Assembly: GCA_016215625.1 (NCBI GenBank)
Contig: JACRIW010000121.1
Span: 1 to 64,000, forward strand
Source: Candidatus Eiseniibacteriota bacterium
GTDB taxonomy: Bacteria; Eisenbacteria; RBG-16-71-46
Length of the DNA stretch: 64,000 nucleotides
Reading direction: 5' to 3'
The notes under the pieces are model-generated. The model had not been told where the DNA came from and did no database searches. It saw only the letters and a program-made list of their open reading frames with translations. Made by a program: the position numbers and the translations under genes. Shown piece by piece: positions 31,097 through 55,708 of this stretch (position 1 is the stretch's first letter; each line of letters begins with the position of its first letter).

Positions 31097-31543
31097 TCAG
31101 CGCTTGGGCAGGTAGCCCGACTTCTCCATCGGCACGACCAGTTCGTCCTTCGTGTAGATGAACGCGTCGCGGTCGTAGTCCGAAAGCTCGTAGTTCTTCT
31201 CGAGCCAGATGGCGTCCTCGGGGCAGGCCTCTTCGCACATGCCGCAGAAGATGCAGCGCAGCATGTTGATCTCGTAGCGCTCGGCGTAACGCTCGCCGTG
31301 CGAGACCGGGTTGGCCGGATCGTTCTCGGCGGCCTTCACGAAGATGGCGTCGGCCGGGCAGGCCACGGCGCACAGTTCGCAGCCGACGCAACGCTCGAGA
31401 CCGTCCTCGTGGCGCGCGAGAATATGAAGACCGCGGAAGCGCGGGAACATCTCGAGCTTCTCGTCGGGGTACTGGACCGTGTAGGGCTTGCGAAACAGGT
31501 TCTCGAACGTGACGCCGAGACCCGTAGCCAGTTCCTTCAGCAT
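31097..31543 (-). CDS. nuoI: NADH-quinone oxidoreductase subunit I-like ferredoxin
   Basis: 148 residues with two 4Fe-4S motifs, CVGCELCAVACP near 53-64 and CIFCGMCEEACP near 96-107, in NuoI spacing, plus the N-terminal amphipathic GLGVTFENLFRKPYTVQYP and DAIWLEKNYELSDYDRD. NuoI carries clusters N6a/N6b in complex I. ATG at 31543 preceded by GGAG eight bases upstream; a GTG three codons earlier is less well placed. No other nuo gene lies in the window, so this is a detached or extra copy. Confidence 0.9.
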   Translation of the reverse strand: MLKELATGLGVTFENLFRKPYTVQYPDEKLEMFPRFRGLHILARHEDGLERCVGCELCAVACPADAIFVKAAENDPANPVSHGERYAERYEINMLRCIFCGMCEEACPEDAIWLEKNYELSDYDRDAFIYTKDELVVPMEKSGYLPKR

Positions 31544-31672: not shown

Positions 31673-32353
31673 TCACCAGTACATCGAAGCGCCCACCAGG
31701 ACCGCGCGCGAGCGCTCGTCGTGCCCCGTCGCGGTCGTCACGTTCAGCAGTCCGTGTTCGTAGCGCGCGCTCAGGGCCGTCGCCCGCCCGCCGAAGTGCG
31801 CGCCCCAGCGCACACCGAGCGTCGCCGCCACATTGCCGCGGCGCATGAGGTCCGTGACGTCCTGCTCGCCCGCGAAGGGCATGAAGATGATCGCCTCCGG
31901 GGACGCGGGCCGCGCCCCGTCGAACAGCGTGCCGTCCACCTCGATCTCGCTCGTCGCACCCAGCACGTACACGCCGGTCGCGCCGCCCTCGATCGCGAAC
32001 CGCCCTCCGCGGGGCGCCCAGGCGAGCCGCACGGGAAGCCGCAGTTCGTTCGCGCGCACGACCTCGCGGTACTCGAACCCCGGCGTCGAAGCCCAGTCGA
32101 GCCGGCTCGCCGTGATGGTGCGGCGGAAGCACACTCCGGCGCGCAGCGCGGTCCGGGCGTCGGGTGACGAACCTGCCGTGACACCGAATCCCATGCTCGG
32201 CCGCCGCAGCGCCGTCTCGCCCGGCGACTGCCGCTCGTCGAGGGTCCGCTGCCCCGCGCCCGCCTCGAGCTCGATGGCCGGATTCCAGCGCGTGGCGTGC
32301 ACCGGGGATGCGATCGCCATGAGGATCGCCACCACGGCGAGCCGTCGTTCCAT
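31673..32353 (-). CDS. Predicted outer-membrane beta-barrel protein (paralogue A)
   Basis: 226 residues, not recognised. A signal peptide (MERRLAVVAILMAIASPVHA) is followed by alternating polar/hydrophobic strands and a C-terminal aromatic residue (ASMYW), as expected for a small eight- to ten-stranded barrel (PorT/OmpA-barrel-like). The ending ARYEHGLLNVTT...VLVGASMYW parallels the upstream gene (ARYEHGLTSLWN...LSAALRVAW), so the two are tandem paralogues. Last gene of a four-gene envelope cluster. Confidence 0.7.
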   Translation of the reverse strand: MERRLAVVAILMAIASPVHATRWNPAIELEAGAGQRTLDERQSPGETALRRPSMGFGVTAGSSPDARTALRAGVCFRRTITASRLDWASTPGFEYREVVRANELRLPVRLAWAPRGGRFAIEGGATGVYVLGATSEIEVDGTLFDGARPASPEAIIFMPFAGEQDVTDLMRRGNVAATLGVRWGAHFGGRATALSARYEHGLLNVTTATGHDERSRAVLVGASMYW

Positions 32354-32391
32354 CGGGCCGCGCCGGCGTTCGCCCCCGCCGAGCCCGGCGG

Positions 32392-33090
32392 TCACCATGC
32401 CACCCGCAGCGCCGCGCTCAGCCGCCTCGCGTGGCGGTCGTAGTCCTGCGGCGGATCGTTCCAGAGACTCGTGAGGCCGTGCTCGTAGCGCGCGGCCAGC
32501 GCGGCGTCACGGGAGAAGAGCTTCGTGCGCCACGTGAGGCCCGCCGTGGCGGCCGCACCCAGCCGGTGAGAAGCGTAGGTGACCTCGTACCACTTCGTGA
32601 GGTCTTCGAAGATCACCGCCGACGGGCGGGTGGAACGCAACGCCGGGTAGGTGTTGTCCTCGTACTTCTCCTCGGCCTTGAGCACATATTCGGCCTGCAC
32701 GCCGAGTTCGAGCGCGAGCGCGGGGATTCGCGGGATCGCGTGATCGAGACGGAGCGGAAGCGCGAGCCCGTGCATGCGCAGCTTCGACCGGATCTCGTAG
32801 CGCTGTCCGCCGAGGCTCGCCGTCGAGCGAGCCTCCTCGCCGGTGTAGCGATAGCCGAGTCCGGTGCCGAGCCGGAAGCCCGAGGGCAGCTCGCCCTCGA
32901 CGAACAAGCCTGCGCCGAGAGCGGGGCCCCACCGCGTGTCGATGTTCGGGACGGTGGTCTCCCAGTCGTAGCGGCTCATGCCGGCCCCCAGCTCGATGCC
33001 GCTGCGGAGCGACAGCCCGCTCGCGCCGGCCGTACCCGTGAACGAGGCGAGGCAGGCGAGCGCCACGATGGAATGGAGAACTCCTCGCAT
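32392..33090 (-). CDS. Predicted outer-membrane beta-barrel protein (paralogue B)
   Basis: 232 residues with a signal peptide (MRGVLHSIVALACLASFTGTAGA), barrel-like alternating strands (IELGAGMSRYDWETT, GFRLGTGLGYRYTGEE, ALELGVQAEYVLKAEE) and a terminal Trp. It shares strand order and the ARYEHGL block with the next gene. It starts two bases after the preceding stop. Function unknown. Confidence 0.7.
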   Translation of the reverse strand: MRGVLHSIVALACLASFTGTAGASGLSLRSGIELGAGMSRYDWETTVPNIDTRWGPALGAGLFVEGELPSGFRLGTGLGYRYTGEEARSTASLGGQRYEIRSKLRMHGLALPLRLDHAIPRIPALALELGVQAEYVLKAEEKYEDNTYPALRSTRPSAVIFEDLTKWYEVTYASHRLGAAATAGLTWRTKLFSRDAALAARYEHGLTSLWNDPPQDYDRHARRLSAALRVAW

Positions 33091-33092
33091 GG

Positions 33093-34265
33093 TCAGCGCC
33101 CTCCCCTGCGGACGATCTCGGCCGGGTTCACCCACATGGACCAACTGCGGCGGGTGACGTTCGGCAGCCCCGAGTCGCGCGCCTGCGGGACCTCGGCGTA
33201 GTCCCAGCGGAACGCGGCGATCTTCCCGAGCGGCAGGCAGAGGCCGATGCCGCGCGTGTCGTCCACGATCTCGCCTGCGATGTCCTTCACGTGGCCGTGG
33301 CGCAGGTCCACCACGCCGAGAATGGACAGTTCCTGTCCCGAGCGGTCCACGTCGTAGCCCTGCCCCGTGACGATCGCCTCATGGTCGAACGACACGGTGA
33401 GGCGCACGAACGGGCCGAGCGCGGAGAGGATCGGCAAGTGCTCGAACGCCGCGTGCATCGCGGTCGGCTGTGCGAGCGACGCGGTCGCGGCGAACCCGGT
33501 GCGACGGATACGCGAGGGCGGTGACGCCTGGTCCTCGTTGAGGAACACGAACAGTTCGTCCCCCGCGTTGAGCACGGAATGACCGAATGCCACGTCCGCG
33601 TCCCACACGCCGTCGCGCCCGTGGCGCAGGAACGCGCTCGGGCTCACACGGGCGAGCACGCCCCAGTCGTGGTTCTTCGCGCGGGCAGCCCCGCCGAGAT
33701 CGGCGGGCGCCAGTGCGACGATGGCGTCCTTGAAGTTCTCGCCGAACGCCACGTCGCCGTACCGGGCGATGGAGCGCTCGCCGGTACGCTTGCCGAATCG
33801 GTCGGCGAGCGTCGCGGCGGAAACCCCGAAGCCCCACGACCGCACGCGCTCGTACGAGCCGAACGAACCGAGCACGCCACCGGATTCGTTCGTGCGCTCG
33901 CTTTGGCCGTAGTCGAGCTCCAGCCCGCCGACGCCCCCCGGCTGCCCGCTCCACGACACGCCCACACCGCCGAAGCCGGCGGTCATGCGTTTCGTGCGCA
34001 GGAACACGTCGGACGCGAGCCCGGGCACCAACTGAGTGCGCGTCTCGTCCCAGCCCCAGCCCTGCGCGAAGCCGAGCGTGGCGGGATTCCCCCACGTGCT
34101 CGTCACGCCCCAGGGCACGGCCACCCCCGCGCCGCCCATGCCGGCGGTGCGGATGGACTGCTCGAAATCCATCGAACGCGCGGTCCCCTGCGCGTGGGCT
34201 TTCGTACCCGTCGCAGCGATGGCGCACACGCACGCGATCGCACACATGCTCCGAAGGCTCTTCAT
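33093..34265 (-). CDS. Predicted outer-membrane protein, PorV/FadL-like barrel
   Basis: 390 residues. Signal peptide ends at TKAHA (about residue 25). Then SIRTAGMGGAGVAVPWGVTS and TWGNPATLGFAQGWGWDETR, the AMGGAFVA...NPA motif typical of FadL/PorV-type barrels. Strand-like alternation continues to the end. Good Shine-Dalgarno (AAAGGAG, seven bases). It starts four bases after the propeller gene. No closer functional assignment. Confidence 0.72.
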   Translation of the reverse strand: MKSLRSMCAIACVCAIAATGTKAHAQGTARSMDFEQSIRTAGMGGAGVAVPWGVTSTWGNPATLGFAQGWGWDETRTQLVPGLASDVFLRTKRMTAGFGGVGVSWSGQPGGVGGLELDYGQSERTNESGGVLGSFGSYERVRSWGFGVSAATLADRFGKRTGERSIARYGDVAFGENFKDAIVALAPADLGGAARAKNHDWGVLARVSPSAFLRHGRDGVWDADVAFGHSVLNAGDELFVFLNEDQASPPSRIRRTGFAATASLAQPTAMHAAFEHLPILSALGPFVRLTVSFDHEAIVTGQGYDVDRSGQELSILGVVDLRHGHVKDIAGEIVDDTRGIGLCLPLGKIAAFRWDYAEVPQARDSGLPNVTRRSWSMWVNPAEIVRRGGR

Positions 34266-34269
34266 GCTT

Positions 34270-35634
34270 TCACTCCTTTCCGCGAGGTCGCGATCCGTTC
34301 AGCGGCACGCGCACGAGCAGCGCGGGCTTCGCGTCCGGCTTCGCGGTCATTTTCTGGTCCGCCCCCACGCGGTCCCATCCCGTGTTCGCGAGGAACACGT
34401 AGTCGTTTCCCACCACCACGCCATGCGTCGGCTCGCCGAGCCGCTCGGTACCGCTCTCGATCGTGCGCTGGGCCGTGACGCGCGTGCCCGCCGCGTCGAG
34501 TTCGAAGCGCATCACCCGCAGCGGCCGCACGCCGTTCTGCACGGCGACGAGAGCACCGGGGATCGCCGTGAGTCCGTCCGTACCCTGCAGCCCGATGCCC
34601 GGCGGATACGCGAGCCAGCTCACCACGCGCGTCTTCAGGTCCACGATCGCGATGCCACGGCCGTAGTCCGACACGTAGAGCCGGCGGCCGTCGGGCGAGA
34701 GCGCCGGCGCCTGCGGCCCGCCGAAGACGCCCGGGGGCACCAGCGCCTCGAGCGCGGCCGCTCCCGGGCGCAAGCGCCACAATCCACTGCCGAGCGCGTC
34801 GCTCACGTACACCGTGCCGTCGGGCCCGACGCAAAGGTCGCCGAGCAGGTGCGGCCCGCCGTCCGGCGCGAGCTCCACGTGGCGCACCACGCGGCCGTCC
34901 GCGAGCGCGAACGCGACGAGCCCGGTGCGGTGGCTGTCGGCCTCGGCCCAGCCCTCGCAGGCCGGGGTCGCGGCCTCGCTCACCCAGAGCAGGTCCCGCC
35001 GCGCGTCCACCGCCGCCGCGTAGAAACCGCGGCCCGTGCCGTGCGGTGACTTCGCGAACACGCGCTCCTCGCCACGCCCGCTCACTTCGTAGACGACACC
35101 CCGCACGATGCTCGTGGCGAGGAACCGCCCGCGCCGCGCGTCGTGCGCCACGTCCTCGACCAGCGCGTTCGTGTCCGCGAAGGTGTGCACGACCACGCCC
35201 TCGCCCACGGGGCGCGAGTTCTCGAGGATGCGCGTGACGAGCGAGACGAACGCCGAATCGCCGAGCAGCGCGGCGAAGTCCGGATCGGTGATCGCGTCGC
35301 GCGTGAGGCCGCTCTTCGCGTAGTCGGCCAGCCGGGCGAGCGCCTCGTCGCGCTCGCCCAGCCGGGCGGCGGCGCGCGCCAGCGCGTACGACACGCCCGG
35401 CGCCTCGCCGATCCGGTCGCGCACGCGCAGCAGGTGCGCGCGTGCGCCGCTCCAGTCGCCCGCGGCGCGGGCGGCCGTGGCGGCGCGCCATTCGGATTGC
35501 CAGCTCGAAGCCTCGGCGGCGTTGGAGCCTCCGGCGCCTCCGGCGCCGCCTTCTGCGAACGACGGCGCCGCGCACAGCAACAGCCCACACCACACCGCGC
35601 CGATGAGCACGGTCCCACGACGAACGAAGTCCAT
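34270..35634 (-). CDS. Secreted SMP-30/NHL-like beta-propeller protein
   Basis: 454 residues: signal peptide (about 1-27), a Gly-rich linker, a helical TPR-like stretch (about 40-110: WRAATAARAAGDWSGARAHL, SYALARAAARLGERDEALAR), then a propeller with repeated blades (GDLCVGPDGTVYVSDALGSG, ALSPDGRRLYVSDYGRGIAI, THGVVVGNDYVFLANTG). This resembles SMP-30/gluconolactonase or NHL proteins, but no catalytic metal set can be assigned. First gene of the four-gene envelope cluster; no obvious promoter in the 55-bp gap after dcd. Confidence 0.72.
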   Translation of the reverse strand: MDFVRRGTVLIGAVWCGLLLCAAPSFAEGGAGGAGGSNAAEASSWQSEWRAATAARAAGDWSGARAHLLRVRDRIGEAPGVSYALARAAARLGERDEALARLADYAKSGLTRDAITDPDFAALLGDSAFVSLVTRILENSRPVGEGVVVHTFADTNALVEDVAHDARRGRFLATSIVRGVVYEVSGRGEERVFAKSPHGTGRGFYAAAVDARRDLLWVSEAATPACEGWAEADSHRTGLVAFALADGRVVRHVELAPDGGPHLLGDLCVGPDGTVYVSDALGSGLWRLRPGAAALEALVPPGVFGGPQAPALSPDGRRLYVSDYGRGIAIVDLKTRVVSWLAYPPGIGLQGTDGLTAIPGALVAVQNGVRPLRVMRFELDAAGTRVTAQRTIESGTERLGEPTHGVVVGNDYVFLANTGWDRVGADQKMTAKPDAKPALLVRVPLNGSRPRGKE

Positions 35635-35689: not shown

Positions 35690-36244
35690 CTACAGACGAG
35701 GCAGCGTGATTCCGGTCTGCTTCTGGTACTTGCCCGCGCGGTCACCGTACGACGTTTCGCACGGCTCGTCCGACTCGAAGAACAGCACCTGCGCGAGCCC
35801 TTCGTTCGCGTAGATCTTCGCGGGCAGCGGCGTCGTGTTCGAGATCTCGAGCGTGACGTGCCCCTCCCATTCGGGCTCGAACGGCGTCACGTTCGTGATG
35901 ATGCCGCAGCGCGCGTACGTGCTCTTTCCCACGCACACGCACAGCACGTTGCGCGGCACCTTGAAGTACTCGACCGTGCGCGCGAGCGCGAACGAGTTCG
36001 GGGGCACGATGCAGACGTCGCCGGTGTAGTCGATCATGTTGCGAGGATCGATGTGCTTCGGATCGAGCACGGTCGAGTTCACGTTCGTGAAGATCTTGAA
36101 CTCGTTCGCGACGCGCACGTCGTAGCCGTACGACGACAGGCCGTACGAAATGACGCCCGAGCGCACGAGCTTCTCCTCGAACGGCGTGATCATCGCGTGT
36201 TCCTGGCACATCCGGCGGATCCACTTGTCGGACTTGATGGACAT
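35690..36244 (-). CDS. dcd: dCTP deaminase
   Basis: 184 residues, usual length. It converts dCTP to dUTP (or dUMP in bifunctional forms). Core motifs: [14 protein letters not shown], the active-site [20 protein letters not shown] (Ser, Arg) and the catalytic-Glu strand [20 protein letters not shown], then [12 protein letters not shown] with GAGGG upstream. Last gene of the seven-gene operon that begins at 41233. Confidence 0.95.
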
Positions 36245-54763: not shown

Positions 54764-55708
54764 CTAGAACAGGAACCGGAGCGAGAAGCGGTGCGCCGCG
54801 CCCAGGTCACGCATGTCCGTGTAGGCGTAGTCCAGATCGGCCATGCCCACGGCCGAGACCGGGAAGTGGAAGCCCGCGCCGCCCGCGATGCCTTCCGAGT
54901 CGTAGTTCATGTTGTAGCCGCCGCGGAGAAACAGGTAATTGCGGAAGGCGTACTCGGCGCCGACGTTCATGCGCTCCGAGTTGTCCGGCGGATGCGAGAA
55001 CTCGAACGAACCGACGAGGCGCTGCTCCGGCGACGACAGCAGGGTCGCCGACGTGCCGACGCGGAAGATCGCGGGGATGCGCGCTTCGCGCTCGATGAAC
55101 TTGACCTGCGAGCCGATCGACTGGATCGCCATGCCGATCTTCATGCCCGCCGTACCGACGTCGTACAGCGTGCCGATGTCGAACGCGACCGTCTGCTGGC
55201 TGAGGTCCGCGAGCCCTTCGTGGATGAAGTTGCCCGTGACGCCGGCGCTGAACTTGTCGGTGAACGAGCGCGCGTAAGTGAGGCCGACCGTCATCATGCC
55301 GGCGTCGAACGTGCGGCCCGTGCCGTACGGCTGGTACGCCGTCGTCTCTTCCATGGGCTGCATGGTGAGCGCACGCGCACTGACGCCGAACGCACCGGGG
55401 ATCTTCTTCACGTGGAAGACGTAGCCCACCTGGTCGAACGACAGGTCGGCCGGCCAGTTGGCGTGGTTCAGCGACAGTTCCGACTTCTCGGCGTCGATGC
55501 GGGCGATTCCGGCGGCGTTGTAGTAGAGCGCCGTCGCGTCATCGGCGACCGCCACGAAGGCGCCACCCATGGCCGCGGCACGTGCCCCCACGCCGATCTT
55601 GAGGAACTGCCCGTCGAACGTTCCGACCTTTTCGAAAATCTGGGCGGAGAAGGCCAGACCCGGGACCAGCATCCCGGCCAGACTCACCGCCACGATCCAC
55701 TTCTTCAC
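54764..55708 (-). CDS. PorV/PorQ family outer-membrane protein
   Basis: 314 residues. Signal peptide (about 1-22), then FLKIGVGARAAAMGGAFVAV and ATALYYNAAGIARIDAE, the PorV-family N-terminal signature. Barrel strands run to a C-terminal FSLRFLF. In type IX secretion, PorV shuttles CTD-bearing cargo at the outer membrane; the gene just upstream encodes such a candidate cargo. GTG start with GGAGGAGG upstream, 22 bases after that gene. Confidence 0.9.
   Translation of the reverse strand: MKKWIVAVSLAGMLVPGLAFSAQIFEKVGTFDGQFLKIGVGARAAAMGGAFVAVADDATALYYNAAGIARIDAEKSELSLNHANWPADLSFDQVGYVFHVKKIPGAFGVSARALTMQPMEETTAYQPYGTGRTFDAGMMTVGLTYARSFTDKFSAGVTGNFIHEGLADLSQQTVAFDIGTLYDVGTAGMKIGMAIQSIGSQVKFIEREARIPAIFRVGTSATLLSSPEQRLVGSFEFSHPPDNSERMNVGAEYAFRNYLFLRGGYNMNYDSEGIAGGAGFHFPVSAVGMADLDYAYTDMRDLGAAHRFSLRFLF

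Follow-up and report, generated by a model that had tools for sequence, protein, structure and literature searches.

Four adjacent genes in the window, the whole 64,000-nucleotide stretch of DNA that we analysed, appear to form a lineage-restricted, recombining cassette of surface outer-membrane barrels that lies between dcd and nuoI and includes a secreted propeller, a reading in which our belief and our doubt are about evenly balanced. The parts are of known kinds; what is new is their arrangement and a locus occurring in two versions. The gene order, the folds of P1 and P2, the paralogy of P3 and P4, the variable content of the site and the two divergent versions with near-identical flanks were computed directly. 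Genomes and loci are cited by working labels (G and L numbers) where they have to be told apart.

Gene cluster and its flanks

The cluster and its neighbours, in order of transcription, are as follows.

35690..36244, minus strand: dcd, dCTP deaminase-like; upstream flank, kept beside nuoI across the family
34270..35634, minus strand: P1, 454 aa; first gene of the cluster
33093..34265, minus strand: P2, 390 aa; second
32392..33090, minus strand: P3, 232 aa; third
31673..32353, minus strand: P4, 226 aa; last
31097..31543, minus strand: nuoI-like, ferredoxin-type subunit; downstream flank of the variable site

The upstream flank is named dcd from a look at its sequence rather than from a family search, and nuoI is a presumed name for the downstream flank. 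The gaps between P1 and P2, P2 and P3, and P3 and P4 are 4, 2 and 38 bp, in agreement with a sequence-only reading of the same DNA that had described a four-gene cluster at 31673-35634 with spacings of 2-38 bp; dcd ends 55 bp upstream of P1, and nuoI starts 129 bp downstream of P4. Read by eye, all four N-termini show a hydrophobic stretch followed by an A-x-A-like site, as expected from the signal peptides that reading had assigned to every gene. With a GC content of 71% in the window, chance reading frames were a concern, which is ruled out by homologues in other genomes and by codon use: third-position GC is 0.88-0.91 in the four genes versus 0.72 when a single frame is read across the window, and because of this high third-position GC and the homologues we regard the four frames as genuine genes. 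A promoter scan found none, matching chance expectation.

Predicted folds of the four proteins

The AlphaFold2 model of P1 (pLDDT 87.0, alignment of 11 sequences) shows, after the predicted signal peptide, a TPR-like domain of helices (residues 45-138) followed by a propeller with six blades (about 142-449), the architecture proposed from sequence. In family scans, Pfam TPR_19 gave a match below its cut-off (E 5.7e-4) and no OmpA-like domain was found; Pfam SGL did not match P1 itself and matched 4 of the 11 aligned homologues at E<=0.01. The best PDB match (Foldseek/VIA) was the SodC-lactonase propeller of Deinococcus radiodurans, 9m58/9m59 (Z 33.8; 269 residues aligned, rmsd 2.1, 23% identity), and the second was 2p4o, a putative SMP-30-family lactonase (Z 29.3). 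Designed and NHL propellers come close behind at Z 28, so the fold by itself is not diagnostic. As modelled, P1 is a propeller of the SMP-30/lactonase type. Homologues scoring at least 121 bits were found in 10 of 59 genomes, with short weak matches in two more.

According to its report, the D. radiodurans propeller (DrSOD) is fused to a Cu/Zn-SOD, has calcium-dependent lactonase activity and binds calcium through Glu200, Asn290, Asn339 and Asp381 (PMC12362111). A profile alignment puts these ligands at E160, G265, Q308 and D353 of P1. The Glu is present in all 10 homologues having a residue at position 160 (11 aligned) and the Asp in all 11; position 265 is G in eight and N in three of the 11, and position 308 is Q in ten and N in one. 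P1 thus shares with DrSOD and the SMP-30 (SGL) family the six-bladed fold and the Glu and Asp ligands, but it departs from the Glu-Asn-Asn-Asp set in that both Asn are replaced, and where DrSOD has a SOD domain it carries a TPR-like one. From the alignment, its putative calcium site is different from the known SMP-30-type one. Position 404 opens an inner strand of the sixth blade. It is H wherever position 265 is G (eight sequences), and only there, and L wherever 265 is N (three); the eight include two near-identical contigs of one genome and the three are among the most distant sequences, and the pairing may go back to one single event. The pattern hints at an altered metal or active site of the propeller.

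P2 was modelled as a 14-strand FadL-fold barrel with N-terminal plug helices (AlphaFold2, pLDDT 86.6, 20 sequences). Its best PDB match was PorV (8gl6_F, Z 32.3; 307 residues aligned, rmsd 3.6, 17% identity), with a second PorV structure, 6h3i_F, at Z 31.8; next, at Z 24-28, were CymD (28.2); one chain from the BAM complex of F. johnsoniae; FadL (26.6); and TodX. The FadL/PorV-like barrel proposed from sequence was thereby borne out by modelling and structure search. PorV of the type IX secretion system (T9SS) is the nearest solved structure and has the same fold with plug, but P2 remains under the NCBIfam PorV/PorQ cut-off (NF033709: E 1.8e-5, 24.5 bits, cut-off 90; NF033710: 11.4 bits, cut-off 250) and has no T9SS genes as neighbours. 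The hydrophobe channels FadL, TodX and CymD share the fold at weaker scores than PorV, and their family PF03349 has no match in P2 and weak matches in 2 of 20 aligned relatives. Of 59 genomes, 46 have relatives of P2 at E<=0.001, a count that includes PorV itself. In a tree of 29 rows, P2 and similar proteins of 340-410 aa form a 17-member set (support 100/99) apart from the PorU-adjacent PorV, including that of the window's own genome. P2 is a PorV-branch FadL-fold barrel, nearer to PorV than to FadL in structure and in sequence.

The two folds could also be taken as a route for hydrophobic lactones or esters, imported by P2 as by FadL and TodX and hydrolysed in the periplasm by P1 as by SMP-30-type lactonases, an account we think rather improbable. 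It would fit the rank of FadL, TodX and CymD after PorV among the matches of P2, and a best P1 match that is a calcium-dependent lactonase propeller (PMC12362111) with Glu and Asp ligands aligning to P1. Against it stand the loss of both Asn ligands (G265, Q308) and the greater closeness of P2 to PorV than to FadL. The two genes, moreover, were seen as direct neighbours in no more than two cases, the window and SJ457 (JADLGX01), a Candidatus Eisenbacteria metagenome-assembled genome (MAG) of the same genus and the nearest named relative.

P3 exceeds the Pfam cut-off for PF13568 (OMP_b-brl_2; 36.9 bits, cut-off 27). P4 itself matches no family in Pfam or NCBIfam, and its match to P3 (E 8.8e-15) marks the two as paralogues. 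By sequence, P3 is a predicted small outer-membrane barrel and P4 one by paralogy, in keeping with the two small barrels suggested earlier. PF13568 matched two of five aligned barrels; unlike such barrels in general, those described here make up a variable pair at a single site. Relatives of P3 were found in 3 of 59 genomes and those of P4 in 2 of 59. The small-barrel profile comprises five barrels, among them one from G004 that aligned to the four-barrel profile with an hhalign probability of 96.4 (E 1.2e-9), while BLASTP between P4 and this barrel was not significant (E 0.27). Searched against the PDB, the profile gave chance-level matches only. It also found a barrel elsewhere in G006 (L049), in the vicinity of proteins whose tails are CTD-like. 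In the same genome, around a barrel related to P3 and P4 (L117, C145, 14000-24500), several adjacent proteins share, by eye, GVYF-x-R-type ends resembling T9SS sorting domains.

The sequence-only reading had recognized no system that it could name. An SMP-30/lactonase-type propeller, a PorV-branch barrel and a PF13568 barrel can now be named.

The dcd-nuoI site across relatives

We surveyed the site in 20 genomes of the family, with neighbourhood readings that leave out L063, L070-L073 and L078 for their poor gene calls. Relatives of P1, P2 or the barrels lie there in seven of the 20, with both flanks on the contig in G000, G004, G015 and G019 and a single flank in G001, G003 and G018. In eight (G002, G005, G006, G009, G011, G012, G014 and G016), dcd and nuoI are 90-174 bp apart, and three have wider gaps with no match to P1-P4: 569 bp in G007, 331 bp in G013 and 923 bp in G017, the last counted from the first piece of a broken dcd match. 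G008 and G010 were placed in no class. The content ranges over P1 with P2 and one barrel, P1 with a barrel, P2 alone, two P2 genes, or nothing, and the full set of P1, P2, P3 and P4 was seen, among the genomes examined, in the window only. A periplasmic or outer-membrane machine had been suggested for the cluster, and conservation in relatives expected of it. Partial sets do recur at the same site, whereas the complete four-gene set does not; as the set breaks up in relatives, P3 and P4 have so few, and P1 homologues are often encoded elsewhere, we rejected a conserved four-gene machine.

The same survey suits another explanation, to which we give a real if minority chance: the space between dcd and nuoI would tolerate inserted genes, and envelope genes that have no relation to each other and no joint function would collect there and decay. 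The content varies from all four genes to nothing, G003 apparently retains no more of a barrel gene than its C-terminal end (a weak match, E 5e-4), and in G002, G007, G020 and G035 the P1 homologues stand apart from both P2 and barrels. On the other hand, P1 together with a barrel recurs in three same-genus lineages, the window, SJ457 and G004 (where the order is dcd, P1, barrel, nuoI), and the short gaps in the window hint at co-expression. The G003 piece (L065, 1193-1768), a possible remnant of a small-barrel gene, has a relative of P2 on one side and nuoI on the other.

Two versions of the locus in one MAG

SJ457 contains two contigs, JADLGX010000496 and 497 (L056/L101 and L002/L100; 3179 and 3164 bp), both spanning from residue 67 of P1 to residue 20 of nuoI and sharing exactly 127 identical bases at each end. 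Such ends resemble the two arms of an assembly bubble at a presumed k-mer of 127. The identity profile of the contigs is high through P1, drops in P2 past the signal peptide and returns to identity before nuoI. Versions A and B of P1 have 97.7% amino acid identity (dS 0.11) and those of P2 70.3% (dS 0.61), and the small barrels, at 26.8%, have the lowest identity of the locus. While P1-A and P1-B are each other's nearest, P2-B groups with the P2 of the window to the exclusion of P2-A (support 99/98) and is more similar to it (77.7%) than to P2-A; barrel A is nearer to P3 (46%) and barrel B to P4 (37%).

We infer that the contigs are strain versions of the locus. The simplest account of the sequence relationships would be that the P2-barrel block was replaced by recombination or that old versions have been maintained across species. 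A tandem duplication was judged less economical, since both contigs reach the same nuoI start. As points against the cassette, one genome could carry both contigs as two copies, or binning could have mixed them, the two versions are known from one population only, and P1 is not especially variable in SJ457 and is often encoded elsewhere.

Variability of P2 and the cassette reading

We compared P2 of the window with both SJ457 versions and assigned the connections between strands to the outer or inner side of the model. Variable positions make up 33 of 62 in outer loops, 18 of 63 in inner turns and 70 of 186 in strands, and the difference between outer and inner sides gives Fisher P values of 0.034, 0.025 and 0.018 in the three pairs, which are not independent and are uncorrected. 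The count of 14 strands and seven outer loops depends on merging model strands 101-107 and 114-125 into one (101-125), a reading picked after a side-blind comparison had shown no difference (strands versus all connections, 52/172 vs 59/178, P = 0.57); the bias is accordingly a lead and not a pre-planned test. Around the second outer loop, the window's P2 differs by 13 residues in length from both SJ457 versions. Between those two versions, the first outer loop and the last one are conserved (0/9 and 1/10 variable). On the model, the loop pattern moderately favours outward exposure. The negative side-blind test and the merged strand on which the sides depend count against the cassette, as does a dN/dS in P2 that does not exceed 1 between the SJ457 versions (dN 0.22, dS 0.61).

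In the cassette reading, P2 and the small barrels P3 and P4 would be surface proteins with varied outward loops, and the P2-barrel genes would be exchanged as a block between strains and species. The pressure on the surface might come from phages, toxins, antagonists or a changing ligand, and P1, secreted and probably periplasmic, would bind or hydrolyse a small molecule that the barrels handle. Surface exposure, the sides of the loops, selection and the joint work of P1 and the barrels are what we infer. If the reading is right, barrel-gene swaps at a fixed housekeeping junction are a means by which an uncultured phylum with T9SS varies part of its surface, and dcd-nuoI is a marked locus for tracking phage or antagonist pressure in natural populations.

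Relation to type IX secretion

SprA exceeded its cut-off in 16 of 19 genomes and in none of 14 controls, and matches were present in all 19 genomes searched; the window's genome has SprA, and its PorU and a PorV-family protein pass their cut-offs. A search for GldM gave no match in 11 genomes and none in the positive controls either. The limited set of papers searched held none linking Eisenbacteria to type IX secretion.

PorE has the domain order TPR then propeller, and PorT is a PF13568-type barrel. By this likeness to P1, P3 and P4 the cluster could be a cut-down T9SS envelope accessory, which we consider very improbable given that no OmpA-like domain was found in P1, that its propeller is nearest to SMP-30-type lactonases and that the cluster is missing from most SprA-bearing relatives.

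P2 could instead have evolved from the PorV family into a specialised type IX carrier, its outer loops holding a particular cargo. The outer loops of PorV are reported to hold cargo CTDs inside SprA (PMC10994853), and P2 is most variable in these loops; type B cargo is reported to have dedicated carriers, often encoded adjacent to it (PMC12618676), and by analogy P2 might be such a carrier. The T9SS components in the window's genome and the spread of SprA are consistent with this. We nevertheless hold it to be unlikely: P2 scores far under the PorV/PorQ cut-off in a clade apart from the PorU-linked PorV, family scans found no T9SS tails in P1, P3 or P4, and the cluster occurs in few of the genomes that match SprA.

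A long shot, less probable still than the carrier by itself, would join this proposal to the cassette. P2-A with a P3-type barrel and P2-B with a P4-type barrel would then be cognate pairs in which the carrier descends from PorV and the barrel is its partner; each pair would move as a block within populations and across species of the uncultured phylum and so diversify a specialised type IX carrier, with P1 bearing a re-tooled metal site (Asn lost at G265, His gained at H404). As a relative of PorV encoded away from the canonical T9SS operon, P2 offers a subject for testing how the FadL fold switches between the carriage of small molecules and of proteins.

Among the Ca. Eisenbacteria relatives, T9SS core genes were found at two places of G000, L075 (C32, 131500-144500) and C69 (12956-17449), with a PorU at 457.8 bits (cut-off 420), a PorV-family protein and an M6-like protein. 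The window itself holds a second PorV-family gene at 54767-55708 (NF033709, 199.7 bits, cut-off 90; UPF0164), which adjoins a gene for a protein of 979 aa whose match to a T9SS tail is weak (17.6 bits, cut-off 23).
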